Source: Chlorobiota bacterium (GTDB lineage Bacteria; Bacteroidota; Ignavibacteria; Kapaibacteriales; NICIL-2). From it: a DNA stretch of 64,000 nt. The position numbers and the translations under genes are program-made. The notes under the pieces are model-generated. The model saw only the letters and a list, made by a program, of their open reading frames with translations, had not been told where the DNA came from and made no database searches. This document shows positions 11,733 to 51,814 of the stretch, in pieces. The stretch spans positions 1 to 64,000 of the forward strand of contig JAOAGY010000003.1 of NCBI GenBank assembly GCA_026415505.1. The letters run 5' to 3'. Position 1 is the stretch's first letter; each line of letters begins with the position of its first letter.

Positions 11733-13202
11733 TCAATCAACTACCACAAGTCGCACCGTCCGAACGTCACCGCCCCGCCCCTGCAGACGAAGCGTGTACA
11801 CTCCCGCACTCAAGCCTGCCGTCGGAACGACTGGCAATCCACCATTGAACGCAGTGGTGCTCACTGTCCGCCCAAGCCCATCGACGATGTCGAGCTGACA
11901 GTTCTCCGGTATCGTCCCCAATAGCAGCGCATCCTCGCCACGCTTGACAGGATGGGGAGCGACCGTCAGCGATTCCTTCGGCTCGTCTTCGACCGATACC
12001 ACCGTTCGCTCGATCGCAAACAATCCATGTGAACAACCGACCAAACACCGATTGGAGTCGAGCCAGTACACCTCGTGAAAATTCGTCGGACCTCCGAGCG
12101 ATAACGTCCGAACCGACGACGTTGCAGTATCGCCGAAAGTAAACTCGAATACATCGAAACCGCCCTTACTGACGAGCGCTCGCGTACCGTTCGTCCACAG
12201 ACCCAGACCAATACCTCTGAGTGTGATCATCATATTCGGATCTTCGACTGTGTTGTAGAGTTTGAAAACCGGCGGTAGATAGGTAAGAGCGTTTTGCTGT
12301 AGATCGAGCCGGGCGACAGTCATACGGCCTGTCCCGATGTAAGCTAAAAGATACAACTGCCCATCGGCGCCACGCGTCAATATCCGCGCTGATCGGTCGA
12401 AATCTATCGGCGGCGTAAAGGTAAACCGCCGATGCTCGATCGTTCCATCTGCAGCGACATGGACGAGCACTACTCCGGTGCAGAAATACAACCCACCCTG
12501 CCCATCGGGAACGAAGGGCGTAGCTTCCTCGGCGTTATCTCCGAATAACGTCCAACGACTGATCAACTCCAGCCCCGAACGACCGACGCGGAAGAGTTCT
12601 GTGAACCTCTGGGTAATCCTCACGGAGTTGTTGAGTGTATCAATCCACGAAAAGAGGTAGGAGTCGGCGGTCACATAGACTCTCCCGCTACCATCCACTC
12701 CGAACCAGAGAAACTTCCGTGTCATCCGGAGCGAGTCTTCGAACGGCGTCAACGGGCTTGGAACGTAGCGGTAAGTATGCCACTGCTGCTCGGCAACACG
12801 GAACACCATCACGCGAGACTCTGCCACGCGAGACTCTGCGTCACGGATTGTACGACCGGCAACGTAGATATTGCCTTCGTGATCCGTCTCGATCGGCGCC
12901 CAAAAGCTATAGTGACTGAAGATCGGTTGGTCGAGTGTATCCGCAGGGTAGCCGTACTGCGGCAACCCGATCGGGTTCCATTGCTGCCCATCCCACACGT
13001 GAACCGAATGAAGTACATTCATCATACCCCACCGCGGGAGGCGGTAGAGGCTACCGCTTTGGACAGCATAAAGCTGACCATTGCGCAGACAAACACGACC
13101 GGCAGGTTTGTCGAAAAGCTGGGTTACCCGCCAGGCAGTTTGTGCTTCGAGCACCCACGCAGCGCCGATCAGCAGAGCGATCACAGAAAAAACGTGTCTC
13201 AT
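11733..13202 (-). CDS. Secreted beta-propeller-like protein with T9SS sorting domain
   Basis: Protein of 489 residues. ATG 13202 is set by a perfect GGAGGT site. A signal peptide (MRHVFSVIALLIGAAWVLEAQ) is followed by about 380 residues of loosely repeated beta strands with 'DGQG/DGSG' loops, consistent with a propeller. The last 75 residues form a type A C-terminal sorting domain: APHPVKRGEDALLLG, then LDIVDGLGRTV and LSAGVYTLRL, ending in V-R-hydrophobic. The protein is therefore expected to cross the outer membrane by T9SS. Substrate or partner is unknown. It lies 19 bases downstream of the Cys-rich gene, probably one operon, and the pair is flanked by repeat clusters. Confidence 0.85.
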   Translation of the reverse strand: MRHVFSVIALLIGAAWVLEAQTAWRVTQLFDKPAGRVCLRNGQLYAVQSGSLYRLPRWGMMNVLHSVHVWDGQQWNPIGLPQYGYPADTLDQPIFSHYSFWAPIETDHEGNIYVAGRTIRDAESRVAESRVMVFRVAEQQWHTYRYVPSPLTPFEDSLRMTRKFLWFGVDGSGRVYVTADSYLFSWIDTLNNSVRITQRFTELFRVGRSGLELISRWTLFGDNAEEATPFVPDGQGGLYFCTGVVLVHVAADGTIEHRRFTFTPPIDFDRSARILTRGADGQLYLLAYIGTGRMTVARLDLQQNALTYLPPVFKLYNTVEDPNMMITLRGIGLGLWTNGTRALVSKGGFDVFEFTFGDTATSSVRTLSLGGPTNFHEVYWLDSNRCLVGCSHGLFAIERTVVSVEDEPKESLTVAPHPVKRGEDALLLGTIPENCQLDIVDGLGRTVSTTAFNGGLPVVPTAGLSAGVYTLRLQGRGGDVRTVRLVVVD

Positions 13203-38055: not shown

Positions 38056-38838
38056 TTACCGCACGATCTGCAAGGGTCCGCTCAGCGCTCGTCCCCCACT
38101 GCGCACGACGATTCGGTACGTCCCGCTCGGCAAATCACCCACCGACAGAGCAGCTCGATCCGACGGCATCGTCGTCGAGCGAACCACACGCCCGAGCGCA
38201 TCGACAATTTCGACGCGTGCACCCATGACCGCCGATACATGCACCACGTCGCTCGCCGGATTCGGCGCGACGGTCACTGCTTCCACCGACTGCTCGACCG
38301 AAAGCGTCGTCGCTTCGAACGTCACGTCGAACGCGATGTAGTCGCTCATATCGGCGACGTTGTAGATGACGACCCCGATGACCGACTGCCCCGATTCACC
38401 TTGCGGATCGAACTGAATCTTGAACGTGTGATCGCGCTCGCCCGGTTGAAGCGTTACACGCCCTTGCTCGTCGCTTTCGAGGACAAACGACGGATAGCAC
38501 GCTTGCCCACTGCAGAAGTTGACGCGGTGATACGGACTTTTGCGACTGGTGTCGATCCGCACGCCGAACGTAACGGGATTGGGCGAGACATTCTCGACGC
38601 TGATGTATGCATCGAGCGGCATGTTCGGAGATACCGGAAACGCCAGCGATTGTCCTTCGACCAATCGCAGCGACGTGTTTTGAATCTGCGGATACGGCCA
38701 CCGTTTCTGACACGGACAGCATCCCGACTTCGGCACGATGACGATCGTTCGCGATGCACTCACGCGCGTTTGCGCGCGAGCATCGTTCGCCCCGATCAAC
38801 AAGCATGCGATTGCGAGCGTGCAGACGAGCTGTTTCAT
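38056..38838 (-). CDS. Secreted protein with T9SS sorting domain
   Basis: Protein of 260 residues; ATG 38838 is set by GGAGGC and a two-box promoter. A signal peptide (MKQLVCTLAIACLLIGANDARAQ) is followed by a CCPC segment and an Ig-like beta domain (YISVENVSPNPVTFGVRIDT, VTLQPGERDHTFKIQFDP). It ends in a type A sorting domain (VAPNPASDVVHVSA, VEIVDALGRVVRS, LPSGTYRIVV). Function unknown. Upstream of pfkA by 10 bases on the same strand, probably by chance of packing. Confidence 0.85.
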   Translation of the reverse strand: MKQLVCTLAIACLLIGANDARAQTRVSASRTIVIVPKSGCCPCQKRWPYPQIQNTSLRLVEGQSLAFPVSPNMPLDAYISVENVSPNPVTFGVRIDTSRKSPYHRVNFCSGQACYPSFVLESDEQGRVTLQPGERDHTFKIQFDPQGESGQSVIGVVIYNVADMSDYIAFDVTFEATTLSVEQSVEAVTVAPNPASDVVHVSAVMGARVEIVDALGRVVRSTTMPSDRAALSVGDLPSGTYRIVVRSGGRALSGPLQIVR

Positions 38839-38865
38839 AAGTTTGCCTCCGAAGTTCGACTCGCA

Positions 38866-38895
38866 CAAAACTACTGCACTTCAGCGTAAAAACAA
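38866..38895 (-). promoter_or_regulatory. Bacteroidota-type promoter of the secreted protein gene
   Basis: Minus strand: TTG (38895-38893), exactly 19 bases, then TAGTTTTG (38873-38866). Predicted start near 38859, 21 bases ahead of the ATG at 38838. The TTG box overlaps the start codon of the divergent tlpA-like gene. On the plus strand TAAGTTTG at 38838-38845 could serve that gene. Confidence 0.65.
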
Positions 38896-39407
38896 TGGCA
38901 CGTTTTGTTGCTTCTGTCGTAGTGCTCGCGATCGCCGCTGCTGCAGCCATCGCACAGGATACCAGCGCTGCACAGCGTTTGCCGATCGTGACACTGAAAA
39001 AACTCGACGGCACGCCGATTACGACCCACGAACTCGTTGCCGGTAGCACTGGACCGATTGTGCTCGATTTCTGGGCGACCTGGTGCAAGCCGTGCATTCA
39101 GGAGCTATCGGCACTGGCGGACGTGTACGACGAATGGAAAAAGCTCACCGGCGTTCGCATCGTCGCCGTTTCGATAGACGATGCACGCAACAGCAAAAAA
39201 GTCGCGCCATTCGTGCGCGGTCGGCGGTGGGAGTTCGACGTCTATCTCGACGAGAACGCCGATCTCAAGCGCGCACTCAACGTCAACGAAATCCCGCACA
39301 CGTTCGTGCTCGATCGCCAAGGCAGGATCGTGTACCAGCACAAATCCTACGCCCCCGGCGACGAAGAATTGCTTTTGGACGCTATCAAGAAAGCAGCCGC
39401 AGAATGA
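38895..39407 (+). CDS. TlpA/ResA-like periplasmic thiol-disulfide protein
   Basis: Protein of 170 residues: signal peptide (MARFVASVVVLAIAAAAAIA) and a thioredoxin fold with WATWCKPC, the cis-Pro loop EIPHTFVLD, and FDVYLDENADLKRAL. Probably reduces or oxidises disulfides of exported proteins or cytochromes. Its stop overlaps the ATG of the DUF6029 gene (ATGA), so the two are coupled. Confidence 0.92.
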   Translation: MARFVASVVVLAIAAAAAIAQDTSAAQRLPIVTLKKLDGTPITTHELVAGSTGPIVLDFWATWCKPCIQELSALADVYDEWKKLTGVRIVAVSIDDARNSKKVAPFVRGRRWEFDVYLDENADLKRALNVNEIPHTFVLDRQGRIVYQHKSYAPGDEELLLDAIKKAAAE

Positions 39408-41029
39408 TCACATCTCGCATGCTCGTTCTGCTGCTCGTTGTGGCGACGCTCGCAACCGATGCACTCGCACAACTTCCGCAAGGCTGGCGCGCCGATCTGC
39501 AAGTGGACGCACAATCCTACACGCCCGATTCGGCGATCAACGCACCGGCTGTTCGTGAAAAGGTGCTCGCACAAGGCTTTTTCAACGTGCTCTATTCCAA
39601 CGAGCATCTGCGGTTGGGATTTCGCTACGAGGCGTACTTCAATCCGCTGCTGGGCATCGACCCCCGCTACGAAGGCAACGGCATTCCGTATCGCTTCATT
39701 CAGTACGTCGGCGATCGTGTGGACATCACCATCGGCAACAGTTACGAGCAATTCGGCAGCGGAATGATTCTCCGCACATACGAAGAACGCTCGCTCGGTT
39801 TCGACAACTCCATCGACGGCGTGCGGCTGAAAGTGCGCCCCACAAGCGGCGTCCAACTGACCGCACTGTTCGGCAAGCAGCGGGCATTTTTCGGTCTCGG
39901 ACCGGGCATCGTGCGCGCAGCCGATCTCGACGTCGAACTGCACGAACTCGCCATCGGCGACGAAAAGCTCTTCGATCTTCCGTTCGCGCTCGATCTCGGC
40001 GCCAGTGTCGTCAGCAAGTACCAGCCGGCAGCCGATCCGATTCTCCGCTTGCCGGAGAACGTGCTTGCGTATGCCACGCGACTATCGTTGACGACCGAGC
40101 GCTGGAATCTCTACGCCGAGTGGGCGTACAAAATCAACGACCCGCAACAAACCAACAACAACAGCTTCAATCCCGGCAACGGACTGTACGTTTCGACATC
40201 GTACAGTGGCGATGGCATCGGGCTTCTGCTGGCAGCCAAACGGATCGACAACATGGACTTTCGTTCCGATCGCGGCGCAATCGGGAACGTGCTCACCATC
40301 AACTTTCTGCCGCCGCTGACCAAAGTGCACACGTATCGCCTCTTTACGCTCTACCCATACGCGACGCAGCCCTACGGCGAATACGGTGTCCAGGGCGAGT
40401 TGACACTGACCATCCCGCGCGGTTCGGCACTGGGCGGACCCTATGGCACGACCGTAACGATCAACTACTCCCGCGTGCACAGTATCGACTCGACGAAAAT
40501 CGACGAGTTCACCTATCGCTCGACGTGGAAGCCCGGCAGAGTGCTTTTCTACCAGGACTTCAACGTGGAAATTCAGCGCACATGGTCGCGCACGCTCAAA
40601 AGCACCTTCACAATGGTTGCACTGGCATACAACAAAGACGTCATCGAAGTCAAGACCGGCTACGGCACGATTTATCCGCTTGCGTTCGTGCTCGAAACGC
40701 AGTACAAGCTCGGCAGCCGAAGTGCGCTGCGAACGGAGCTTTCTCACATGAGTGTGCGGGGCGATATGGGAAGCTGGGCATTCGCGTTGCTCGAATACAC
40801 GCCGGTCAGCAACGTGTACTTGACGGTGTTCGACGAATGGAACTATGGCAATCCCGATCCGGAAAAGCGCTACCACTACCCGGCGGCGTCGGTCACGTAC
40901 GTCACCGGCGGAACGCGCATCGCGTTCGGTTACGCCAAGCAGCGAGCGGGGATTCTCTGCGTGGGCGGTGTGTGTCGGTTGGTGCCTGCTTCGAACGGCT
41001 TTTCGCTCAACATCACGAGCACGTTGTAG
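39404..41029 (+). CDS. DUF6029-type outer-membrane protein
   Basis: Protein of 541 residues with signal peptide (MLVLLLVVATLATDALAQ) and a long series of amphipathic strands ending in a C-terminal strand GFSLNITSTL, consistent with a large barrel. GNSYEQFGSGMILRTYEERS and SIDGVRLKVRPTSGVQLTAL match the Bacteroidota DUF6029 family as I remember it. Function is not established. Translational coupling to TlpA suggests a joint role, perhaps maturation of a disulfide-bearing surface complex. Confidence 0.78.
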   Translation: MITSRMLVLLLVVATLATDALAQLPQGWRADLQVDAQSYTPDSAINAPAVREKVLAQGFFNVLYSNEHLRLGFRYEAYFNPLLGIDPRYEGNGIPYRFIQYVGDRVDITIGNSYEQFGSGMILRTYEERSLGFDNSIDGVRLKVRPTSGVQLTALFGKQRAFFGLGPGIVRAADLDVELHELAIGDEKLFDLPFALDLGASVVSKYQPAADPILRLPENVLAYATRLSLTTERWNLYAEWAYKINDPQQTNNNSFNPGNGLYVSTSYSGDGIGLLLAAKRIDNMDFRSDRGAIGNVLTINFLPPLTKVHTYRLFTLYPYATQPYGEYGVQGELTLTIPRGSALGGPYGTTVTINYSRVHSIDSTKIDEFTYRSTWKPGRVLFYQDFNVEIQRTWSRTLKSTFTMVALAYNKDVIEVKTGYGTIYPLAFVLETQYKLGSRSALRTELSHMSVRGDMGSWAFALLEYTPVSNVYLTVFDEWNYGNPDPEKRYHYPAASVTYVTGGTRIAFGYAKQRAGILCVGGVCRLVPASNGFSLNITSTL

Positions 41030-41059
41030 CGTCTCATCCGCCGCTTTTCTGCCCCACAT

Positions 41060-41079
41060 CCGGTGTAATTTTACACCGG
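41060..41079. promoter_or_regulatory. Perfect 20-bp dyad upstream of mnmH
   Basis: CCGGTGTAA-TT-TTACACCGG, a perfect inverted repeat, lies 22 bases before the mnmH ATG and 30 bases after the DUF6029 stop. The two-base centre and lack of a T run fit a repressor operator better than a terminator. The regulator is unknown. Confidence 0.45.
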
Positions 41080-41101
41080 CACAGCTTGCATCCCAGTCGC
41101 A

Positions 41102-42145
41102 ATGCGTTCGGTTTCGGTCGAAGAGTTTCTCGCTGCCCTTAGGAGCGGTTCGATCTGTGTGTTCGACGTCCGCAGCCCGCGCGAATACGCACGTGGCGCT
41201 ATCCCGGCAGCATTGCCGCTACCGCTCTTCGACGACGACGAACGCCACCGCGTCGGTCGGCACTACGTCGAGCACGGTCGTCGCGCAGCGATCAAGCTGG
41301 GACTCGATCTTGTCGGTCCGAAACTCCGATGGTTCGTCGAGGAAGTCGAACGCCACCTCCAGCCTGGTCAGTCGGTCGGACTGTATTGCTGGCGCGGTGG
41401 AATGCGCAGTAGCGCGGTTGCGTGGCTGCTCGATTTTTACGGCTTCGATGTCGTCGTGCTGCGCGGTGGATACAAGGCGTATCGTCGTTTTGCATTGGCA
41501 CAATTTGCCGCGCCGCGGCAGTGCGTGATATTGAGCGGCTACACCGGCTCGGGGAAAACCGAACTTCTCGACATGCTCGCCCGCAGCGGTGAAGCGACAC
41601 TCGATCTGGAACGATTGGCATCCCACCGCGGCTCGGCATTCGGCGCACTCGGTCTGGCTCCGCAGCCGACGCAGCAGCACTTCGAAAACCGCATGGCTTT
41701 CGAGCTATGGAAGCATGCCGCTGCCGATCGCATTTGGATCGAGGACGAATCGCGGCGCATCGGTTCGCTCGCGATCCCCGATGGGCTGTGGTCGCAGATG
41801 CAATCGGCGCCGATCGTCGCAGTAGAAATTCCGCTCGAGCGTCGCATCGAACGGCTCGTTGCCGAGTACGGGCAATTTCCCACCGAGCAACTGGCAGCAT
41901 GTTTGCGAGCGATTCGCGAGCGGTTGGGTGCGGAGCGGTATCGCCGCGCACAGGAAGCTCTCGCAAGCGGCGATCTTGCCACCGTCGCTCGCATCGCATT
42001 GGAGCACTACGACAAAGCTTATCGCCACAGCCTTCGCAAGCGTGCCGATCGCATCGTGTGGATACGCGCCGATTCGCCTGCTGACGCTCTACCTGCTCTC
42101 CGCCGCTTCACTGTGCATCACCACGCGGTAGCCGAGCAACGATGA
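41102..42145 (+). CDS. mnmH: tRNA 2-selenouridine/geranyl-2-thiouridine synthase
   Basis: Replaces sulfur by selenium at U34 of certain tRNAs, through a geranylated intermediate. The 347 residues have an N-terminal rhodanese domain with active Cys96 in YCWRGGMRSSA and a C-terminal P-loop domain with SGYTGSGKTELLD (145-157), both diagnostic. It uses selenophosphate from SelD, not in the window, and geranyl diphosphate. The stop overlaps the next ATG (ATGA), so it heads an operon with the three lipid-sugar genes; a functional tie through prenyl diphosphates is possible but may be coincidence. Confidence 0.93.
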   Translation: MRSVSVEEFLAALRSGSICVFDVRSPREYARGAIPAALPLPLFDDDERHRVGRHYVEHGRRAAIKLGLDLVGPKLRWFVEEVERHLQPGQSVGLYCWRGGMRSSAVAWLLDFYGFDVVVLRGGYKAYRRFALAQFAAPRQCVILSGYTGSGKTELLDMLARSGEATLDLERLASHRGSAFGALGLAPQPTQQHFENRMAFELWKHAAADRIWIEDESRRIGSLAIPDGLWSQMQSAPIVAVEIPLERRIERLVAEYGQFPTEQLAACLRAIRERLGAERYRRAQEALASGDLATVARIALEHYDKAYRHSLRKRADRIVWIRADSPADALPALRRFTVHHHAVAEQR

Positions 42146-43566
42146 ATCGCCCCCGGCAACCGCTTCTCGTTGTCGATCTGGACGAAACGTTTTTGCGAAC
42201 CGATCTGGTCTGGGAAGCCCTCAGCCAATTAGCGCGACGCAAGCCCCATTTGCTGCTGCTTGTTCCGTTGATGTTTCTTCGCGGGCGCGTTCGGTTCAAG
42301 CATTGGATCGACCGTCACGTCGAACTCGATCTCGACGCGATGCCGCGCAACGACGCCGTCGAGCGATTCGTCCGCAGTGCAAAAGCCGATGGGCGCACCG
42401 TCGTGTTGGCGACGGCATCGCTGCGACGCTGGGTGGAACACTGGGCACAGCAGCTCGGCTGTTTCGACCACGTACTCGGCACCGACACGATCAACCTCCG
42501 CGGCAAAGCAAAGCTCGAACGCATCCGTGCAGAATTCGACGGCTGCGAGTTCGACTACGTCGGCAACAGCGGTGCCGACGTTCCCTTGTGGCGAGCGGCA
42601 CGTGCTGCGTTCGTCGCCGGTGACCGCCGCCGCTACGAGCGTCGCATCGGCAAACCATTCGCCGGCGAATTTCCCGTCGAGCGTCCGACGATTGCCGATT
42701 GGCTCGGTCAGCTTCGCATCGAGCAGTGGAGCAAAAATTTGCTCGTGCTCGTGCCGCTCATGCTCGCGCACCGGATCGGCGATCCGGCAGCGCTCGGTGC
42801 GGGACTGGTGGCAGCGCTGCTTTTGAGCATCGCAGCATCGGCGCTCTACGTGTTCAACGACATCCTCGACCTCGAACGCGATCGAGCGCATCCCGCCAAG
42901 CGCAATCGTCCGCTGGCGCGCGGCATCGTACCGCTTCGCCACGCGTGGATCGCGGTCGGTATCGGTAGTGTCGCTTCCATCGTCGCTGCTTCGCTTGTGT
43001 TGCCGAGTGCTGCGCTGATCGTGTTGCTTTTGTACGCGACGGTGTCGGCGGGATATTCGCTCGCCTTCAAACACATCGCAGTGGTTGACATCATCGTGCT
43101 CGGTGGATTGTACACGTTGCGCATCATCCTCGGCGGAGTCGCGACGGGAACGGAAATCTCGACGTGGCTGCTCGGCTTTGCATTCGTGTTTTTCACTGGC
43201 TTGGCACTGCTCAAGCGCCACAGCGAAGCTGTCCACGCTCGCTCGAGCGGGCACCGGTTCGATAGTGTTCGACCGTACGACGACCGCGACGAACCGTTTC
43301 TCCTGGCTGCAGGTATCGCCACCAGCGCGATGGCAGCGGTGATTTTGATCCTCTACCTGACCAGCGAGCGCGTGCGCCAACTCTACAGCCATCCGGAGCG
43401 GCTCTGGGCGGTGCTGCCACTGGTGTTGCTGTGGACAATGCGCATGTGGCGGCTGTCGGTGCGCGGAGAACTATCGAGCGATCCGCTCAGCGCCGCATTG
43501 CGCGATCGGGCAAGTCTTGCGATCGCTGTCGCGGTCGTTGCGATCGTGACGATTCTCGCACGCTGA
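42142..43566 (+). CDS. HAD phosphatase-UbiA prenyltransferase fusion (NoeC/DPPR-synthase-like)
   Basis: Protein of 474 residues. Residues 1-185 are a HAD hydrolase: motif I DLDET (12-16), motif II LATAS, Lys in LRGKAKLERI and motif IV YVGNSGADVP. Residues 195-474 are a UbiA-type membrane enzyme with NDILDLERDRAHPAKRNRPL (about 237-256) and IVLGGLYTLRIILGGVATG. These UbiA blocks resemble mycobacterial Rv3806c, which transfers 5-phosphoribose from PRPP to decaprenyl phosphate, and NoeC of Azorhizobium. The HAD domain could then remove the 5-phosphate. With the next two genes this predicts polyprenyl-phosphate arabinose synthesis. Placement at the inner membrane is clear; the reaction is inferred. 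Confidence 0.85.
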   Translation: MNRPRQPLLVVDLDETFLRTDLVWEALSQLARRKPHLLLLVPLMFLRGRVRFKHWIDRHVELDLDAMPRNDAVERFVRSAKADGRTVVLATASLRRWVEHWAQQLGCFDHVLGTDTINLRGKAKLERIRAEFDGCEFDYVGNSGADVPLWRAARAAFVAGDRRRYERRIGKPFAGEFPVERPTIADWLGQLRIEQWSKNLLVLVPLMLAHRIGDPAALGAGLVAALLLSIAASALYVFNDILDLERDRAHPAKRNRPLARGIVPLRHAWIAVGIGSVASIVAASLVLPSAALIVLLLYATVSAGYSLAFKHIAVVDIIVLGGLYTLRIILGGVATGTEISTWLLGFAFVFFTGLALLKRHSEAVHARSSGHRFDSVRPYDDRDEPFLLAAGIATSAMAAVILILYLTSERVRQLYSHPERLWAVLPLVLLWTMRMWRLSVRGELSSDPLSAALRDRASLAIAVAVVAIVTILAR

Positions 43567-43570
43567 GGCA

Positions 43571-44860
43571 ATGAGCATACGTTCGTGGACTGGACTGCCG
43601 CCCGCTGTATCGTCGCATGCGGTCCCTCTGCACTGGACCGGCGAAAATCCCTTCGATGGAATCGCCGGAACGCTATTGGCGCGCGGCTGCGGTCGGAGCT
43701 ACGGCGACGTGTGCTTGCCGTGCGAGACCGCTCTTGTGTGCACACCGTGCGACCGGATTCGCTGGTTCGATCGCGAGCGCGGTATCGTCCGCACCGAAGC
43801 CGGAGCGACTCTCGGCGACATTCTCCGCACCACGATACCGGCAGGTTGGACACTGCCGGTTCTGCCGGGGACCGAACATGTGACCGTCGGCGGGGCAATT
43901 GCAAACGACATTCACGGCAAAAGCCATCACTGGGCAGGCACGTTCGGTCGGTGGGTCGAACGCTTCGAACTGATCCGCTCCGACGGACGCTATCTCTGCA
44001 CGCCGAACGACAACGCCGAACTCTTCGCCGCAACGATCGGCGGACTCGGATTGACCGGAATCGTTGCCTGGGCTGAGCTTCGACTCGTGCCGGCGCGTTC
44101 GGCGTGGATGGCAACACAAAACATTCCCTTTTCCTCGCTCGACGAGTTTTTCGAAATCGGCTCGCGGCTCGAACGCAGCGCCGAATACGTCGTCGGTTGG
44201 TGCGATCTATCGGAGCCAGGAAGCATTCGCGGGATTCTTCATGCATCGTCCTTCTGCGAAGGCGATCGTCGCACACGCACACCATCGCCGCGTTTCGATC
44301 GTGCGCCGTCGCTGCCGTTTTCGATGTGGTCTCGACCGTTGATTCGGCTTGCCAATGCTGCGCGGCACTGGTCACGATCGCAGCGTCCGACCGCGCGGGA
44401 GCACTACACCCAGGTGTTTTTCCCGCTCGACCGCATTCCGTGGAATCGCCTTTTCGGACGGCGTGGCTTTTATCAGCTTCAAGCAGTCGTGCCGGCTCGC
44501 ATCGAACGCGAAGGAATCGCCGAGATATGCCGACGATTGTGGCATGCACGCATTCCACTACCGCTGTGTGTGCTCAAACGATTCGGATCGATCGCCTCGC
44601 CGGGCTGGTTGTCGTTCCCGATCGCCGGAACGAGCATTGCCGTGGACGTACCGAACACATCTCGGGCACGAGCGGCATTGGGAACCATCATCGCCGACGT
44701 CGCTCGAATCGGCGGGCGCGTTTATCCAGCCAAAGACGCACTGATGACAGCCGAGCAATTTCAGCGCATGTATCCCGATTGGCAGCGGCTCGATCGTGTG
44801 CGCGACCTGCGCTGCTGCTCGCAATTTTGGAAGCGGGTCACACAGAGGACGTCGCAATGA
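43571..44860 (+). CDS. DprE1-like FAD oxidoreductase (polyprenylphosphoryl-ribose 2'-oxidase)
   Basis: Protein of 429 residues of the FAD_binding_4/ALO group. CGRSYGDVCLP (40-50) and VTVGGAIANDIHGKSHH (104-120) match DprE1, including the His-Gly-Lys (115-117) equivalent to His132-Lys134 of the mycobacterial enzyme. FFPLDRIPWNRLFGRRGFY and VYPAKDALMT (Lys about 386, equivalent to Lys418) are also kept. The position of Cys387, target of benzothiazinones, is Ala here (SIAVDV, about 354-359). Predicted role: oxidises the 2'-OH of polyprenylphosphoryl-ribose to the keto intermediate. It begins 4 bases after the UbiA fusion and overlaps the dehydrogenase gene. Confidence 0.88.
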   Translation: MSIRSWTGLPPAVSSHAVPLHWTGENPFDGIAGTLLARGCGRSYGDVCLPCETALVCTPCDRIRWFDRERGIVRTEAGATLGDILRTTIPAGWTLPVLPGTEHVTVGGAIANDIHGKSHHWAGTFGRWVERFELIRSDGRYLCTPNDNAELFAATIGGLGLTGIVAWAELRLVPARSAWMATQNIPFSSLDEFFEIGSRLERSAEYVVGWCDLSEPGSIRGILHASSFCEGDRRTRTPSPRFDRAPSLPFSMWSRPLIRLANAARHWSRSQRPTAREHYTQVFFPLDRIPWNRLFGRRGFYQLQAVVPARIEREGIAEICRRLWHARIPLPLCVLKRFGSIASPGWLSFPIAGTSIAVDVPNTSRARAALGTIIADVARIGGRVYPAKDALMTAEQFQRMYPDWQRLDRVRDLRCCSQFWKRVTQRTSQ

Positions 44861-45609
44861 AACTCGACTCGATTCTCATCGTCGGCGCTACCTCGGCAAT
44901 TGCCGAAGCGACAGCGCGCGAGCTGATCGGTACATGCCGGGCATTTGTGCTCGCAGCACGCAATCGCGAGCGGCTCGACGCAGTGGCGAGCGATCTCCGA
45001 AGCAGAGGAGCAGATGCGGTTTTCACGCTCGACTACGACGCGCAGCGCGACGTCGAGCGCGATGTGGTCGCCGACGCCGAACGCCTGCTCGGCACAGTGC
45101 CCGATGCTGTGCTCATCGCGCATGCTGTGTTGCCGCGCCACGAAGACGTCGTTTGCGATGCGAAGTACGCTCGCTCTGTGCTCGACATCAACACCGTGTC
45201 GGTGCTTGTGCTTTGCACGCACGTTTGCCGCCATTTCGAGTGGCGCGGCAGTGGGATGCTCGCTGTGATCAGCTCCGTCGCTGCCGATCGCGGGCGCCGA
45301 CGCAACTTTCTCTACGCTGCATCGAAAGCAGCGCTCGATGTGTATCTCGACGGCTTGCGATTGCGGTGGATGGCAACGTCGCCTGCTCTGCGTGTGCTGA
45401 CGATCAAGCCCGGCTACGTGCGAACGCCGATGACTGCGCATTTGGAGAACATGCCACTGGCTGCGCAGCCGCAACGTGTCGGCAGAACCATTGCGCGACT
45501 CCTTCGGCGCGGCGATTGCGGTCGTCGGTACATTCCGTGGTGGTGGCGACTGGTGATGGGCGTCGTGCGCCGTCTGCCCGATCGTGTGCTGGTCTCGGTG
45601 CAGCAGTAG
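44857..45609 (+). CDS. DprE2-like short-chain dehydrogenase (2'-keto reductase)
   Basis: Protein of 250 residues of the SDR superfamily. SILIVGATSAIAEATARELI is the Rossmann start, with GATSAIAE like the GxTSxIG form of DprE2. The catalytic Ser (VISSVAAD) and YAASKAAL (Tyr-x-x-x-Lys) are present, as is KPGYVRTPMT. Predicted role: NAD(P)H reduction of the keto sugar lipid to polyprenylphosphoryl-arabinose. ATGA overlap with the DprE1-like gene makes the pair translationally coupled, as their mycobacterial counterparts are adjacent. Confidence 0.88.
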   Translation: MKLDSILIVGATSAIAEATARELIGTCRAFVLAARNRERLDAVASDLRSRGADAVFTLDYDAQRDVERDVVADAERLLGTVPDAVLIAHAVLPRHEDVVCDAKYARSVLDINTVSVLVLCTHVCRHFEWRGSGMLAVISSVAADRGRRRNFLYAASKAALDVYLDGLRLRWMATSPALRVLTIKPGYVRTPMTAHLENMPLAAQPQRVGRTIARLLRRGDCGRRYIPWWWRLVMGVVRRLPDRVLVSVQQ

Positions 45610-45650
45610 TAGCATGGCGCGTCACTGCGGGGGATGCGATCGGACCGAAC

Positions 45651-47477
45651 TCATCGGTCGTTGTATAACCGCGCCAGTCGATCGCGTGCAGCCATGTTGC
45701 TCCGGTCGAGACCGATCGCCGCACGATAGCACTCGGCGGCGCGACGACGATCGTGCGATACCACTGCATCTCCTGTCCGCACGTATGCCAACGATGCCAG
45801 CGCAGCCAATCCACGGTCGAGTCGCTCGGTATCGTATCGCTGGGCACCTTCCATGAGCTGCTGGGGTTCGACCATCGTCGGCAGTGGCGGAATCTGCCCA
45901 CCTGCTCCGACCAGCGCGACAGTAGCGCCGTAGGGTCGGACGTCGAATGCAGAAGCCAATTCCGGCTCGGTCTCGATCACTTCCGGTGTGGCGAACCAAT
46001 AGCGATCGGGGTTACGCTCGGCAAGGGCGCGAAGCAGCGCAACGAATGCACGTTGAATCTGGTTGTATCGCTCTTTCGGCATCCGTCCGGACTCGAACTC
46101 TTCCAGCAGTGGCATGTAGGCAGCGATCTCTGTCGAACATCGCCGGATCGGCTCGCCGTACCACCGTTCCAGTTGATGGACGTACCATGTACGCCTGAGG
46201 AGTTCCTTCTCGACGAGCACGATGTCGCGCCGATAGCCTTCGACCTGTTGCAGATACCAGAATGCCGAGCAGAAGTAGTCCCACTGCTGAGAGAAGACGA
46301 TGCTACCTTTCGGCAGCGGCTCAACAACGAGGCGGACGTAGTCGCGAACCAGGCGATGTGCGTGCAAGTCATTGACACGCCAGTTCCACACGGTGTAGGC
46401 GAGCGGCAGCAAGACCACAATGCCACGCACGAAGCGGTATCGCCAGAGCGCAGCAATCCCGACGGCTGCCGCCAGCGACAATGCGACGAACGCCGATACG
46501 AAGTACGGCTCGATGTCGTGAATGCTGTAGTTGATCACATAGCCGACGCACACGACCGCCATCAGTACCAGCAAGAGAGCGATCGGGCGATTTCGCCGCC
46601 AGAGAATCCACAAGCCCCACAATGAGAACGGCAATGCAGCGTTCGGCAGCAAGAGCTTCCAGAACACCGCCAGTTGTTGCCGCCACCCACCGCTGAACAT
46701 CCACACCGAATACTGCTTACCCGACACATGGTACCAGAACTTGTCGAAGCTGCGATGGACCTCGCCCCAGTCGAAAATCGGTCCGGATGCGCTCCGCAGC
46801 GGCAAATAGACATAGAGCAGTGCACACGAAATCACCATCACTGCTGGCAAGGCAAGTTCTCGGACACGCTCGGCGAAACTGCCGCGACCGAGCAACAGCG
46901 CCATCACCAGAACGCCCGGCAGCAGAACGATGCTCGATAGATGATTCGTAAAGCACAGCCCCAACACCAGTGCAGCAATCACCATCTGCCGACGGCGGCG
47001 CGAGTTCTCCCAACGTACCAGCATGTGGATCAAAAGCACCACCAACAGAACTTGCAGCGCATGAACTTCGAGACTGAGTGCCTGCGCCCAGATCGTCCGT
47101 GCTGTTGCAAACAGCAGTGCTGCTATCGCCGCAACGACTCGAACCGCCGCCGAATCGAGCGTTACCACCCGACCCACCAGATGCAAGGACGTTCGATGCA
47201 CCACCGCAACAGCGCTGGCACCGAGCACAGTCATGAGCAGGTTCAACTTCGCAATCGGCAACAGCAGTGGTAGCGGAAGCACATGCCATAGATATCCCAC
47301 AAGCGTAAACAACGGGTAGCCGGTCGGGTGCGCCACGCCGAGCGTTGCACACACCCCAGCCAACTCGCCACAGTCGGTGTAGTACACATCCGGTGCCGCT
47401 GTCAGCCGATACAGCACTAATGCGACCGTGCTAACAGCGACCGTATCCAGCCATCGCAGATCGAGCCGTGAGTGCAT
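45651..47477 (-). CDS. DUF2723 GT-C-type membrane glycosyltransferase candidate
   Basis: Protein of 608 residues. About ten transmembrane helices occupy the first 400 residues, then a soluble domain with TPR-like helices (AAECYRAAIGLDRSN) at the end. The first loop YYTDCGELAGVCATLGVAHP carries the Asp/Glu and HPTGYPLF pattern of DUF2723, the family of human TMEM260 protein O-mannosyltransferase, so a GT-C role using a lipid-phosphate sugar donor is likely. The gene is convergent with the DprE2-like gene (41-base gap). It might be the arabinosyl acceptor enzyme; inference only. ATG 47477 is preceded by AGGATC. Confidence 0.8.
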   Translation of the reverse strand: MHSRLDLRWLDTVAVSTVALVLYRLTAAPDVYYTDCGELAGVCATLGVAHPTGYPLFTLVGYLWHVLPLPLLLPIAKLNLLMTVLGASAVAVVHRTSLHLVGRVVTLDSAAVRVVAAIAALLFATARTIWAQALSLEVHALQVLLVVLLIHMLVRWENSRRRRQMVIAALVLGLCFTNHLSSIVLLPGVLVMALLLGRGSFAERVRELALPAVMVISCALLYVYLPLRSASGPIFDWGEVHRSFDKFWYHVSGKQYSVWMFSGGWRQQLAVFWKLLLPNAALPFSLWGLWILWRRNRPIALLLVLMAVVCVGYVINYSIHDIEPYFVSAFVALSLAAAVGIAALWRYRFVRGIVVLLPLAYTVWNWRVNDLHAHRLVRDYVRLVVEPLPKGSIVFSQQWDYFCSAFWYLQQVEGYRRDIVLVEKELLRRTWYVHQLERWYGEPIRRCSTEIAAYMPLLEEFESGRMPKERYNQIQRAFVALLRALAERNPDRYWFATPEVIETEPELASAFDVRPYGATVALVGAGGQIPPLPTMVEPQQLMEGAQRYDTERLDRGLAALASLAYVRTGDAVVSHDRRRAAECYRAAIGLDRSNMAARDRLARLYNDR

Positions 47478-47624: not shown

Positions 47625-48047
47625 ATGGACGTGCGCGATTATTTGTTCCGCGAAAAACTGCCGCTGATGAGCACGGCACTGGAAGCCTACGCGCTGCGGC
47701 AACGCACCATCGCCAAAAACATCGCCAACGCTACCACGCCGGGCTATCGTCCCGAGCGCGTGCGCTTCGAGGAAGAATTCCTCCAGAGCGAGATGATGCT
47801 CCGCGGCACCCGCACCGACGAGCAACACGTGAGCATCGGTCCGCCCCTCGATAGCGAAGCCCGACCCCAGCGGGAAGATGCCCCCGTACCGAAACCGGAA
47901 GTCTATTTCGCCGGCGAGTCGCACGTCAACGTGGACAAAGAAATGGGCGAGCTGGCGAAAAATCAAATTCGCTTCCGCTTGGTTGCTCGCCTGGCGCAGC
48001 GCTACTTCTCCGGATTGCAGCAAGCCATCAAAGGTACACCACAATAA
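47625..48047 (+). CDS. flgB: Flagellar proximal rod protein FlgB
   Basis: Protein of 140 residues, subunit of the periplasmic rod. The N-terminal heptad region with QRTIAKNIANATTPGYRPER is the conserved flagellar axial-protein signature; the C-terminal helix (MGELAKNQIRFRLVARLAQR) mirrors it. First gene of flgB-flgC-orfX-fliE-fliF-fliG, 28 bases below a sigma54-like promoter. Confidence 0.95.
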   Translation: MDVRDYLFREKLPLMSTALEAYALRQRTIAKNIANATTPGYRPERVRFEEEFLQSEMMLRGTRTDEQHVSIGPPLDSEARPQREDAPVPKPEVYFAGESHVNVDKEMGELAKNQIRFRLVARLAQRYFSGLQQAIKGTPQ

Positions 48048-48058
48048 CCCGATCGGCT

Positions 48059-48547
48059 ATGGCAAGCGAAAACATTTTTTCGGCGTTCGAATTCAGTGCG
48101 CAGGGACTGAGCGTCCAGCGCATGCGACTGTCGGCGGTCGCCAAAAACATCGCCAACGCCGACACCACACGCGACGAACGCGGTCAGGTCTATCGCCGCG
48201 AAGTCGTCGTCGTGCGGGCGCTCCAGCGCAACCAGTTCGACGATCTCTTGCAGCAGTCGTTGCCCCTGGCGCGCAGCGCGCCATCGCACGTGGATCCCGA
48301 AACGCCTGGTCTGCGTCCGCCCGACGATCGCATCCTCAAGGCACAAGTGGCGCGCGACAATTCGCCGCCACGCTTGGTGTACGACCCGACGCATCCGGAC
48401 GCCGACGCCGAAGGCTACGTTCGCATGCCGAACGTCAACGTCGTCACCGAAATGGTCGAGATGATTTCGGCGCAGCGTGCCTTCGAAGCCAACACGGGCG
48501 TGATCAGCGCCGCAAAGAACATCGCTCGCGATTCACTCGACATCTGA
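48059..48547 (+). CDS. flgC: Flagellar proximal rod protein FlgC
   Basis: Protein of 162 residues. AFEFSAQGLSVQRMRLSAVA and AKNIANADTT at the N-terminus, GYVRMPNVNVVTEMVEMISA and FEANTGVISAAKN at the C-terminus are diagnostic. The start context CGATCGGCTATGGCA is identical to that of fliE. No Shine-Dalgarno site. Confidence 0.96.
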   Translation: MASENIFSAFEFSAQGLSVQRMRLSAVAKNIANADTTRDERGQVYRREVVVVRALQRNQFDDLLQQSLPLARSAPSHVDPETPGLRPPDDRILKAQVARDNSPPRLVYDPTHPDADAEGYVRMPNVNVVTEMVEMISAQRAFEANTGVISAAKNIARDSLDI

Positions 48548-48551
48548 TGCC

Positions 48552-48761
48552 ATGAACCTGCGTGCAATCGCTGCATATCAGCAAGCGGCTCCTGCCGAGA
48601 CGGCGTTCCACCAGCGTCGCACTGCCGAACAGCATGCCCGGCAACAACAGCCGATGCAACAATCACCGGCACTGGCAGCTCCGCTCGTCGTCGAGCAATT
48701 CACGCGCAACGGACAGCCCCAGCGCATCGCGCTCGGTGTTTACCTGGACAAACGAGTCTAA
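48552..48761 (+). CDS. Small Gln-rich protein between flgC and fliE
   Basis: 69 residues, unrecognised. Gln/Ala/Pro-rich in the middle (RRTAEQHARQQQPMQQSP) with a short conserved-looking end (GQPQRIALGVYLDKRV). It begins 4 bases after the flgC stop and ends 18 bases before fliE, so it is very likely translated with the operon. It could be an export-associated or chaperone peptide; no evidence fixes this. Confidence 0.6.
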   Translation: MNLRAIAAYQQAAPAETAFHQRRTAEQHARQQQPMQQSPALAAPLVVEQFTRNGQPQRIALGVYLDKRV

Positions 48762-48779
48762 CATTTCCAGCGATCGGCT

Positions 48780-49088
48780 ATGGCAGGTATCGCACCACTC
48801 GACTCGCTTCTGCAACAACCGCCGGCAACAGGTGCGCCGCAGCAGCCGGCACGCACCGCGCCGCAAGGACCGACCTTCGACGACACGCTCCGCCAGTTCG
48901 TCGAAAGCGTCAACCAGCTGCAACACGAAAGCGGCGATAAAAGCGCGCGTTTCATCAAAGGCGAGGCAGTTGACTTGCACGATGTGATGATCGCTGCCGA
49001 AAAAGCCAAGACCAGCTTCCAGCTTCTGATGGAGCTGCGCAACAAAGCGCTCGATCTCTACCGCGAAGCGATGCGGATTCAAGTGTAA
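48780..49088 (+). CDS. fliE: Flagellar hook-basal body protein FliE
   Basis: 102 residues; adaptor between the MS ring and rod. FDDTLRQFVESVNQLQ and the C-terminal VDLHDVMIAAEKAKTSFQLL and LRNKALDLYREAMRIQV match FliE. A Pro/Gln-rich N-terminal stretch is longer than usual. Confidence 0.95.
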   Translation: MAGIAPLDSLLQQPPATGAPQQPARTAPQGPTFDDTLRQFVESVNQLQHESGDKSARFIKGEAVDLHDVMIAAEKAKTSFQLLMELRNKALDLYREAMRIQV

Positions 49089-49113
49089 CCACTGCCCGAC
49101 GGTGTAACAGGCT

Positions 49114-50775
49114 ATGGCTCTTCCTGCAGCGTTCGATCAAGCCAAGCAGTTCTGGAAGCAATTGCGCATGCCGCAGAAAGCGGCGATCATCGGCGCCGTC
49201 GCTGTTGCCATCGGCATCGTCGTCGCTGTCGTCGTCGCCTCGTCGTCGCAGCCGATGCAGGTCCTCTTCAGCGACCTCGATCCCAAGGATGCCGCGGCGA
49301 TCGTCGAAAAACTCAAAGAGCAAAACATTCCCTACGAGCTTGCCGACGGCGGCACGACGATCCGCGTTCCACAGCCGCAGGTGTACGACCTGAGGCTGGC
49401 GATGGCGCGCGAGGGATTGCCCGCCGGCAGCACCGTCGGCTACGAAATTTTCGATCGCACCAATCTCGGCATGAGCGATTTCGTCCAGAAGCTCAACCAC
49501 AAACGCGCGCTCGAAGGCGAGCTGCAAAAAACCATCGCCAGCTTCGACGAAGTGCAAAAGGTGCGCGTGATGATCGTGCTGCCCGAAAAAGCACTGTTCG
49601 AGAAAGACCAAAAGAAGCCGACCGCTTCGGTGTTGCTCCATCTCAAAAGCGGTCGGAGTCTGAGCAAACTCAACATCGAGGGCATCCAAAATCTGGTAGC
49701 CAGCAGCGTCGAAGGTCTCAGCCCTGCCGACGTCACCGTCGTCGATCAGCACGGACAAATTTTGAGCCAAGCGCCGCGCGAAACCTCGACGCTGGCGGGC
49801 TTGACCGCAACGCAGTACGAGCAGCAGCAGAAAGTCGAAAGCTACTTGACCTCGCGCGTGCAATCGTTGCTCGACGGTGTGCTCGGTCCGGGCAACAGCG
49901 TCGTGCGTGTCAGCGCCGAACTCGATTTTACCCAGCGCGAGCAAACACGCGAGAACTACGATCCCGATGGTCAGGTCGTTCGCAGCGAAGAACGCATCGC
50001 CGAAGCACGTCGCTCGCAGGATTCGCTCGACTATCCCGCCGTCAACAGCGAAAGCAACGCGACGAAAGTGCGCACCAACTACGAAATCTCGCGGACGATC
50101 GAGCGTATCGTCGGCGGCGTCGGGACGATCAAGCGTATCTCGGCATCGGTGCTGGTCAACGGCATCACCAAAGTCGTCGAGCAGGACGGCAAGAAAGTCG
50201 TCCAATACACGCCGCGCAGCCAGGAAGAGTTGCAAAAGCTCACGCAGATCGTGCGCAACGCGATCGGCTACGACCCCGAACGTAACGACCAAGTGAGCGT
50301 GGTCAACTTGCCGTTCGACACCACCGCACTGGAAGAACCGGAAGAAGAGCAGACGCTGTCGTTACCGAAGGGTGGGCTGGCGATCGGCATCACGGCATTG
50401 ATTGCATTGGCGTTGGCGCTGTGGGCGCTGTGGCGCTTAGTGATGGCACCGCCGCTGCGGCGTCGGATCGAGGAAATCATTCTTCCACCCGCCGAAGAGC
50501 GGCTCCAATTGGCAACCGATGCGATGGCTCTTGCTCCGATAGAATCGCTTTCGCCGCCAGCTCAACCAGCCCAGTTGGAAGAACACCGCGAACGTTCGCC
50601 CTACGATGAACTCCGCGAGCGAGTCCGTGCCAAGCTCGATGCAGCCGGTAGCCAAGGACTCACCGAAGAGCAATTGCTCGTCGAGGAAATGAAAGAGCGC
50701 ATCGCACAGTTCATTCGTGAGAACAACGCCGATGCCGTCAAGCTGATTCAAAGCATGATCAATCAGGAGCACTGA
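49114..50775 (+). CDS. fliF: Flagellar MS-ring protein FliF
   Basis: 553 residues. Membrane helix about 25-43, then ring-building motifs (VLFSDLDPKDAAAIVEKLK, EIFDRTNLGMSDFVQKLNHK, GELQKTIASFDEVQKVRVMI), a second helix about 425-445 and a cytoplasmic tail that binds FliG. Inner-membrane base of the rotor and housing of the export gate. The length is typical. Confidence 0.97.
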   Translation: MALPAAFDQAKQFWKQLRMPQKAAIIGAVAVAIGIVVAVVVASSSQPMQVLFSDLDPKDAAAIVEKLKEQNIPYELADGGTTIRVPQPQVYDLRLAMAREGLPAGSTVGYEIFDRTNLGMSDFVQKLNHKRALEGELQKTIASFDEVQKVRVMIVLPEKALFEKDQKKPTASVLLHLKSGRSLSKLNIEGIQNLVASSVEGLSPADVTVVDQHGQILSQAPRETSTLAGLTATQYEQQQKVESYLTSRVQSLLDGVLGPGNSVVRVSAELDFTQREQTRENYDPDGQVVRSEERIAEARRSQDSLDYPAVNSESNATKVRTNYEISRTIERIVGGVGTIKRISASVLVNGITKVVEQDGKKVVQYTPRSQEELQKLTQIVRNAIGYDPERNDQVSVVNLPFDTTALEEPEEEQTLSLPKGGLAIGITALIALALALWALWRLVMAPPLRRRIEEIILPPAEERLQLATDAMALAPIESLSPPAQPAQLEEHRERSPYDELRERVRAKLDAAGSQGLTEEQLLVEEMKERIAQFIRENNADAVKLIQSMINQEH

Positions 50776-50779
50776 GTCA

Positions 50780-51814
50780 ATGGCAGCGATCACCTCACAG
50801 CGGCAGCTAACCTTCGAGCAATTGAGCGGACGCCAAAAAGCGGCATTGCTTCTGATGGCACTCGATGTCGAAACCGCCTCGCAGGTGTTGCGGGCACTCC
50901 GTCCGCAGGACATCGAACAAGTCGGCGCCGAGATCGCAGCACTCGACGCAGTGCCAAAGGAACTCACTGCTCGTGTCGTGGAGGAATTCTACCAGCTCAT
51001 CGTCGGTCGCCAGTACGTACTGGCTGGGGGCGTCGAGTACGCACGGCTATTGCTGGAACGCTCGTTCGGTCCGGAAAAAAGCCGCGACCTGATCGAGAAG
51101 GTCAAGATGCTTTCGACGGTCCGGGGTTTCGACATCCTCAAGAAAGCCGATCCCCAGCAACTGGCTAGCTTTTTGTCGAAAGAGCATCCGCAGACGATCG
51201 CGCTGCTGTTGTCGCATCTACCGACCAATCAAAGCGCCGAAGTGCTCGAACGCTTTCCCGACGATCTTCGTGCCGACGTCATCATGCGCATCGCCACAAT
51301 CGGTAAGGTCTCGCCGGCAATTGTCCAGCAGATCGAGCAGGTGGTCGATCAAATCGCCGAACAAACGTTATCGCAGAACATGGCTTCCGCAGGCGGTGCG
51401 CAAATCGTCGCCTCGATCCTGAACCTATCGCCGCCTGCGCTTGCCAAGTCTATCATGGAGCACATTGAGCGTACCAACCCGCAGTTGGCGCAAGACATCA
51501 AGCGACTGATGTTCCTGTTCGAGGACATCTTGCTCATAGACGACCGCGGCATTCAACGCATCCTGCGCGAGGTGGATCGCCGTGATTTGACGTTGGCTCT
51601 CAAGGGTGCCGATGAACGGCTCCGCGCAAAGATTTTCAAGAACATGTCCGAGCGGGCAGCCAAGGTCGTCAAAGAAGAGCTCGAGCTGATGGGACCGGTA
51701 AAGCTAAAGGACGTCGAAGCAGCCCAGCAACGCATCGTCGAAATCGTCAAGCGACTGGAAGAGCAAGAGGAGATCACCATCAGCGGACGCGGTCGCGACG
51801 AGGTGTACATTTGA
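50780..51814 (+). CDS. fliG: Flagellar motor switch protein FliG
   Basis: 344 residues. Armadillo-like FliG N, M and C domains: LSGRQKAALLLMALD, FLSKEHPQTIALLLSHLPTN, and C-terminal MFLFEDILLIDDRGIQRILR with the charged torque helix (EVDRRDLTLALKGADERLRA). It completes the run of genes here; fliH, fliI and the rest are not in the window, and the next gene is on the opposite strand. Confidence 0.97.
   Translation: MAAITSQRQLTFEQLSGRQKAALLLMALDVETASQVLRALRPQDIEQVGAEIAALDAVPKELTARVVEEFYQLIVGRQYVLAGGVEYARLLLERSFGPEKSRDLIEKVKMLSTVRGFDILKKADPQQLASFLSKEHPQTIALLLSHLPTNQSAEVLERFPDDLRADVIMRIATIGKVSPAIVQQIEQVVDQIAEQTLSQNMASAGGAQIVASILNLSPPALAKSIMEHIERTNPQLAQDIKRLMFLFEDILLIDDRGIQRILREVDRRDLTLALKGADERLRAKIFKNMSERAAKVVKEELELMGPVKLKDVEAAQQRIVEIVKRLEEQEEITISGRGRDEVYI

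Follow-up and report, generated by a model that had tools for sequence, protein, structure and literature searches.

D-arabinofuranose (Araf) is an uncommon sugar outside mycobacteria, in which DprE1 is a clinical drug target. The mycobacterial decaprenylphosphoryl-arabinose (DPA) pathway is composed of Rv3806c, Rv3807c, DprE1 and DprE2. The operon described here is composed of three genes, for a HAD-UbiA fusion, a DprE1-like flavoprotein and a DprE2-like short-chain dehydrogenase/reductase (SDR). It shares the enzyme classes and reaction order of the DPA pathway, and DPA enzymes are the best structural matches of all three genes. It is located in the first 64,000 nucleotides (the window) of contig JAOAGY010000003.1 of a Chlorobiota bacterium (GCA_026415505.1; 2.3 Mb draft genome G000, contig C13), and it very probably makes polyprenyl-phosphoryl-beta-D-arabinofuranose, a membrane-carried arabinose donor. 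In distinction to the mycobacterial pathway, a fused HAD domain takes the place of the phosphatase Rv3807c, the lipid carrier is probably undecaprenyl phosphate, and DprE1 C387 is replaced by alanine.

ORF15 of Citrobacter youngae, a HAD-UbiA fusion with a phosphatase (PRP) and a transferase (PPPRS) domain, makes polyprenyl-phosphoryl-ribofuranose (Kelly et al. 2024, PMC11127046). The window fusion resembles ORF15 in its N-terminal phosphatase and C-terminal UbiA domain within one protein, in its motif for phosphoribosyl pyrophosphate (PRPP) and in its predicted polyprenyl-phosphoryl-ribofuranose product. Unlike in the Citrobacter system, DprE1- and DprE2-like genes follow the fusion, and arabinose is therefore the predicted final product. 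In systems for which both the genome and the glycan are known, Araf goes together with DprE1 and DprE2 homologues, which are treated as a mark of this sugar (PMC11127046). The three-component pentofuranose system of the same authors also includes a MATE flippase and a GT136 transferase, neither of which is present in the window operon. Compared to that system, the donor synthase gene is present (42142-43566), no MATE-family flippase gene stands beside it in the operon, and a convergent TMEM260-like GT-C gene adjoins the operon, for which a connection with the pathway is no more than suggested. Further uses of the Araf pathway, published or predicted, include O-antigen side chains and the pilin arabinosylation in Pseudomonas cited in PMC11127046. 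The window operon is similar to the PSPA7_6246 region, a Gram-negative polyprenyl-phosphoryl-Araf pathway predicted to feed O-glycosylation of type IV pilin; in the account of Pseudomonas given in that paper the P. aeruginosa enzyme has no PRP domain, unlike the window fusion, and the P. syringae homologue has a C-terminal one.

Enzymes of the predicted donor pathway

The three genes are consecutive at the coordinates given in the initial annotation and lie on the plus strand, and their matches are far beyond chance (Table 1). The flavoprotein gene starts 4 nucleotides past the stop codon of the fusion, the ATG of the SDR overlaps the flavoprotein stop by 4 nucleotides, and the fusion start overlaps the end of the upstream mnmH gene by another 4. 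Co-transcription and translational coupling of the operon are probable.

The fusion is a full-length member of the family NF006088/PRK08238 (E=4e-145, 484 bits, cut-off 351, residues 5-470), from which nothing distinguishes it beyond its sequence. The predicted fold of the N-terminal half matches SerB-type phosphatases, and D12, D14 and T16 of the DxDxT motif, T91, K124, G141 and D146 are invariant in eight aligned fusions. For the UbiA half, Rv3806c of M. tuberculosis is the top sequence match among all PDB chains. It is also the top PDB fold match for the AlphaFold model of the fusion (pLDDT 92), with quinone-type and lipid-type/prenyl-transferring UbiA enzymes below it at TMt 0.64-0.75. The PRPP contacts of Rv3806c have been mapped and residues probed by mutation (PMC10994848). 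Nine out of ten contacts are conserved in the fusion (R22, K28, Y70, N73, D77, K87, R90, Y138 and K143), as is Y157, a moderate contributor. The PRPP/Mg motif NDILDLERDRAHPAKRNRP and most of the contact residues are invariant across 27 relatives. The HAD nucleophile and the PPPRS residues of ORF15 (D18, N247, D248, D251, D255) correspond to D12, N239, D240, D243 and D247.

Given its UbiA fold and its weak similarity to quinone and heme models, the fusion could be taken for a conventional aromatic prenyltransferase that serves quinone or heme synthesis and carries an additional phosphatase. This reading, to which we give practically no credence, is refuted by residues, fold and context: no quinone or heme model scores above roughly 31 bits on the fusion, versus the 484 of PRK08238, the four other UbiA proteins of the genome lack the PRPP residue set which the fusion keeps, and the operon partners are DprE1- and DprE2-like. 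In a quick tree the two UbiA paralogues retained fall far outside the group of the fusion. The initial annotation would have been contradicted by clustering with quinone, heme or chlorophyll enzymes or by missing PRPP-binding residues; this domain falls with Rv3806c, away from the quinone and heme enzymes, and the residues are present. Assignment of this half as an Rv3806c-type polyprenyl-phosphate phosphoribosyltransferase is supported, its activity being predicted from sequence and model.

The flavoprotein matches DprE1 structures far better than the next PDB family (E=1e-11). It retains equivalents of DprE1 Y60, H132, K134, W230, Q334, Q336, K367 and K418, including the FAD-site H132, the catalytic K418 and the substrate-side Y60, Q336 and K367. 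N385 is substituted, and C387, the residue attacked by covalent benzothiazinone drugs in mycobacteria, is A357 here. For the SDR, whose catalytic residues N112, S140, Y153 and K157 were read off the sequence, DprE2, in its complex with DprE1 (21gq), is the sole PDB entry matched at E<=1e-20; against PRK07102 it scores 211 bits, under the cut-off of 267. When the pair was checked against other oxidases and SDRs, DprE1 and DprE2 were far better than any other solved structure.

Several observations weigh against an Araf donor pathway. The flavoprotein and the SDR do not reach the cut-offs of the DprE1 and DprE2 equivalog models (NF053785, 267 bits, cut-off 500; NF053786, 146 bits, cut-off 250), and the genes are thus named DprE1-like and DprE2-like and not filed as equivalogs. 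Both cut-offs appear to be set for the mycobacterial enzymes, and that of NF053785 was reached by no genome among the relatives or the phylum sample described below. The ribose-contacting Q135 of Rv3806c is replaced in the fusion by Ser, with Ser, Thr or Asn at this position among the relatives checked, and K208 is replaced by Asp. The operon contains neither a flippase gene nor a transferase gene, a search of the window genome found no GtrA-type flippase, and its Wzx-type flippases are unassignable, with weak similarity to the Wzx of the family f3 operon. Arabinose measurements in this lineage were not found in the literature, and our search on arabinose in Chlorobi and Kapabacteria gave nothing relevant and no paper describing the glycan.

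The scores under the equivalog cut-offs, together with the substituted N385 and C387, leave some room for a different polyprenyl-phosphoryl pentofuranose (ribose or xylose) as product, the pair having changed its specificity or acting on another lipid-linked sugar. Ribofuranose and xylofuranose variants of the pathway do exist, the latter with one GalE-like epimerase in place of the FAD/SDR pair (PMC11127046). We consider such a product improbable, given that most of the checked substrate-side and FAD-side residues are conserved, including K418, H132 and Q336, and that DprE1- and DprE2-like genes occur together beside the PPPRS gene through most of the order.

For the Araf donor, we infer the synthesis steps from strong homology, residues and fold, and relatives of the enzymes have been shown elsewhere to catalyse each of them. 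The fused HAD half is predicted to remove the 5'-phosphate of polyprenyl-phosphoryl-ribofuranose-5-phosphate, the DprE1-like flavoenzyme would then oxidise C2 of the ribose, and the DprE2-like SDR would reduce the keto sugar with opposite stereochemistry to arabinose. The donor would then be flipped into the periplasm, where a GT-C enzyme may attach the arabinose to an envelope glycan or protein. The biochemistry foreseen in the initial annotation, with a phosphatase fused to UbiA and a DprE1/E2 pair, is thus supported by homology, PRPP residues and fold; its "complete pathway" holds for donor synthesis and does not extend to flippase and glycosyltransferase.

Table 1. Features of the locus, in window coordinates
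Feature	Position	Strand	Best support
mnmH, tRNA 2-selenouridine synthase	41102..42145	+	NF008750 E=7e-109
HAD-family phosphatase half of the fusion, residues 1-184	42142..42693	+	Pfam HAD PF12710 E=4e-10
UbiA-fold half of the fusion, predicted polyprenyl-phosphate phosphoribosyltransferase (Rv3806c/PPPRS type)	42694..43566	+	Rv3806c E=3e-28; Foldseek 8j8j TMt 0.83
PRPP/Mg binding motif NDILDLERDRAHPAKRNRP, residues 239-257	42856..42912	+	Rv3806c N73, D77, K87, R90 equivalents present
DprE1-like FAD oxidase, predicted polyprenyl-phosphoryl-ribose 2'-oxidase	43571..44860	+	DprE1 structures E=6e-53
DprE2-like SDR, predicted 2'-keto reductase	44857..45609	+	DprE2 structure E=1e-21
TMEM260-like GT-C glycosyltransferase, convergent with the operon	45651..47477	-	PF11028 E=6e-30

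The mnmH gene is probably a co-transcribed neighbour outside the pathway; its adjacency to the fusion was found in all five same-genus loci read. A longer mechanical reading frame of the SDR, starting at 44104, was rejected in favour of the ATG at 44857. Scanning the locus for promoters and terminators gave nothing exceeding shuffled sequence. The description of the organism as carrying a type IX secretion system and as flagellated agrees with a single sorting domain at 38056-38868 (TIGR04183, 32 bits, cut-off 23) and with genes for FlgB, FlgC, FliE, FliF and FliG at 47625-51814.

Distribution of the operon

Out of 84,980 species genomes scanned, at least 557 loci encode a relative of the fusion, and the best 80 of these were inspected. 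A DprE1 homologue is found beside the fusion relative in 49 of these 80 loci, and DprE1 and DprE2 homologues in the same order in 30 (named genomes in both cases), the latter in Pseudomonadota, Myxococcota, Nitrospirota, KSB1, Chlorobiota and Ignavibacteriota. Mesorhizobium, Burkholderia and Corallococcus are among the genera with the same fusion. The HAD-UbiA architecture and the Araf donor pathway are thus already known and not new. The fusion had been put forward as a special finding, with arabinogalactan and Nod factors as the known uses of the pathway. Neither view can be sustained, since PRK08238 is a large named family in which one member has been proven biochemically and an Araf branch predicted (PMC11127046), the gene order is widespread, and pilin and O-antigen uses have to be added. 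The initial annotation was right that this lineage has no known acceptor.

Among 99 related genomes, the window's own included, the UbiA gene is above cut-off in 73 and a DprE1-like gene is present in 79. Carriers belong to families numbered here f1, f2, f3, f5, f6, f8 and f9, and the UbiA, DprE1-like and DprE2-like genes are usually consecutive. The search of related genomes for the three-gene order, proposed with the initial annotation, thus found it kept across the order. Outside the window's order, a phylum-wide sample shows the DprE1-like gene only sporadically; within the order (Kapabacteria, Ignavibacteria and relatives) the operon is near-universal. This near-universality is the new element, and such wide retention of the pathway suggests a core envelope function.

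Some loci depart from the common scheme. In family f2 (genera g4 and g13; L040, L041, L042, L062, L063) and family f8 (L054, L056) the UbiA enzyme has no HAD domain and DprE1 and DprE2 homologues follow, so that the 5'-phosphatase must be encoded elsewhere. One genome of the otherwise positive family f3 (G080, 97% complete) lacks the fusion, DprE1 and the TMEM260-like GT-C altogether. Upstream of the operon, usually directly, families f2, f3, f5 and f9 carry a GH57 branching-enzyme-like gene (L047:13750-15483 -, L040:8089-9807 +, and nine more loci), which was considered as arabinosyltransferase and rejected, being a glucan-branching-type enzyme.

The TMEM260-like neighbour and the envelope context

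Like animal TMEM260 (CAZy GT117), which is a protein O-mannosyltransferase and uses mannose, the convergent neighbour of the operon combines a PF11028 domain with a GT-C fold; unlike it, the neighbour is a bacterial short form of distant similarity only. Its TD35xGE38 motif is invariant. The model (pLDDT 91.5) has a high-confidence GT-C fold resembling ArnT (TMt 0.58), oligosaccharyltransferases and, more weakly, AftB (0.45) and Emb, a structure search which gives the general GT-C fold and does not distinguish donors.

The presence of this GT-C was determined by protein search of the same 99 genomes, with counts limited to genomes at least 95% complete and two high-identity contig-end fragments scored as present. 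It was found in 51 of 60 DprE1-positive and in none of 13 DprE1-negative genomes (Fisher p=6e-9, kinship ignored); by genus, the numbers with and without it are 28 and 6 for DprE1-positive versus 0 and 7 for DprE1-negative (p=8e-5, kinship again ignored). The DUF6029 control neighbour is present in five of the six DprE1-negative genomes outside f7, and the GT-C in none of the six. Mapped on an ftsY tree, the absences of DprE1 come down to only about three independent ones (f7/f10/G029, f4 and G080), with the GT-C missing in all. Several DprE1-positive lineages have lost the GT-C, and a parsimony count of losses does not separate it from the DUF6029 control. Adjacency to the operon is common to two species only among same-genus genomes (window and G001). 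With about three independent absences and adjacency in two species, the GT-C link is a lead and not a result, and the evidence is suggestive of the GT-C as the best candidate arabinofuranosyltransferase.

We are slightly inclined to accept that the GT-C is unrelated to the pathway, retains a hexose donor and stands beside the operon by accident. The restricted adjacency, the DprE1-positive genomes without the GT-C and the few independent absences all agree with this, as does family f2, where the gene sits with thioredoxin-like and DUF6029 genes. What speaks for a function in the pathway is the distribution by DprE1 status, which the DUF6029 control does not share, and the behaviour of a long TMEM260 paralogue (about 1030 residues), which occurs near-universally in the order irrespective of DprE1. 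In the window genome and in G004 this paralogue is directly followed by a DPM-synthase-like GT2 gene, probably its donor synthase (L077:9265-12330 and 12332-13075; L172:4839-8652).

In family f2 the short GT-C is found beside DUF6029 (L165:1627-6502, L168:2566-7429), in L165 also with a thioredoxin-like gene; the same DUF6029, thioredoxin-like and GT-C genes flank the arabinose operon at 38895-47477 of the window. Several Proteobacteria and a Chlorobium carry a related GT-C gene directly after DprE2 (L105:5601-7472, L112:9148-10986, L109:3685-5037, L142:13486-15288, L148:13366-15180), which is likely to encode an arabinofuranosyltransferase; no match to these genes was found among the window-genome GT-C genes compared.

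Relatives of family f3 carry a Wzx-like flippase gene inside the operon. In this family the Wzx-like gene and a UDP-galactopyranose mutase gene (TIGR00031, 447 bits) precede the operon (L047:11223-13753 -; L086, Ignavibacteria; L059, L050, L046, L045), and the loci thus co-encode donors of both sugars found in mycobacterial arabinogalactan, galactofuranose and arabinofuranose. The window genome has no real homologue of the mutase, and an arabinogalactan-like polymer is therefore unsupported in it. No Emb/Aft-type acceptor system turned up in the window genome, in which no family search for Emb/Aft was made. The neighbours c7 and c8 in relatives, considered as flippase or transferase, were rejected as DUF3467 and TPR proteins.

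No arabinose glycan is described for this Gram-negative order, and the conservation of the donor pathway through it points to an envelope component that has yet to be described. Tentatively, and with more doubt than confidence, we propose that the whole order places D-arabinofuranose on an envelope component as a core trait by means of the TMEM260-like GT-C. Since proteins are what animal TMEM260 O-mannosylates, secreted or surface proteins might serve as the acceptor. The TMEM260-like GT-C is a testable candidate for the arabinose-attaching enzyme, and, if the proposal is true, this would be protein O-arabinofuranosylation by a relative of TMEM260.

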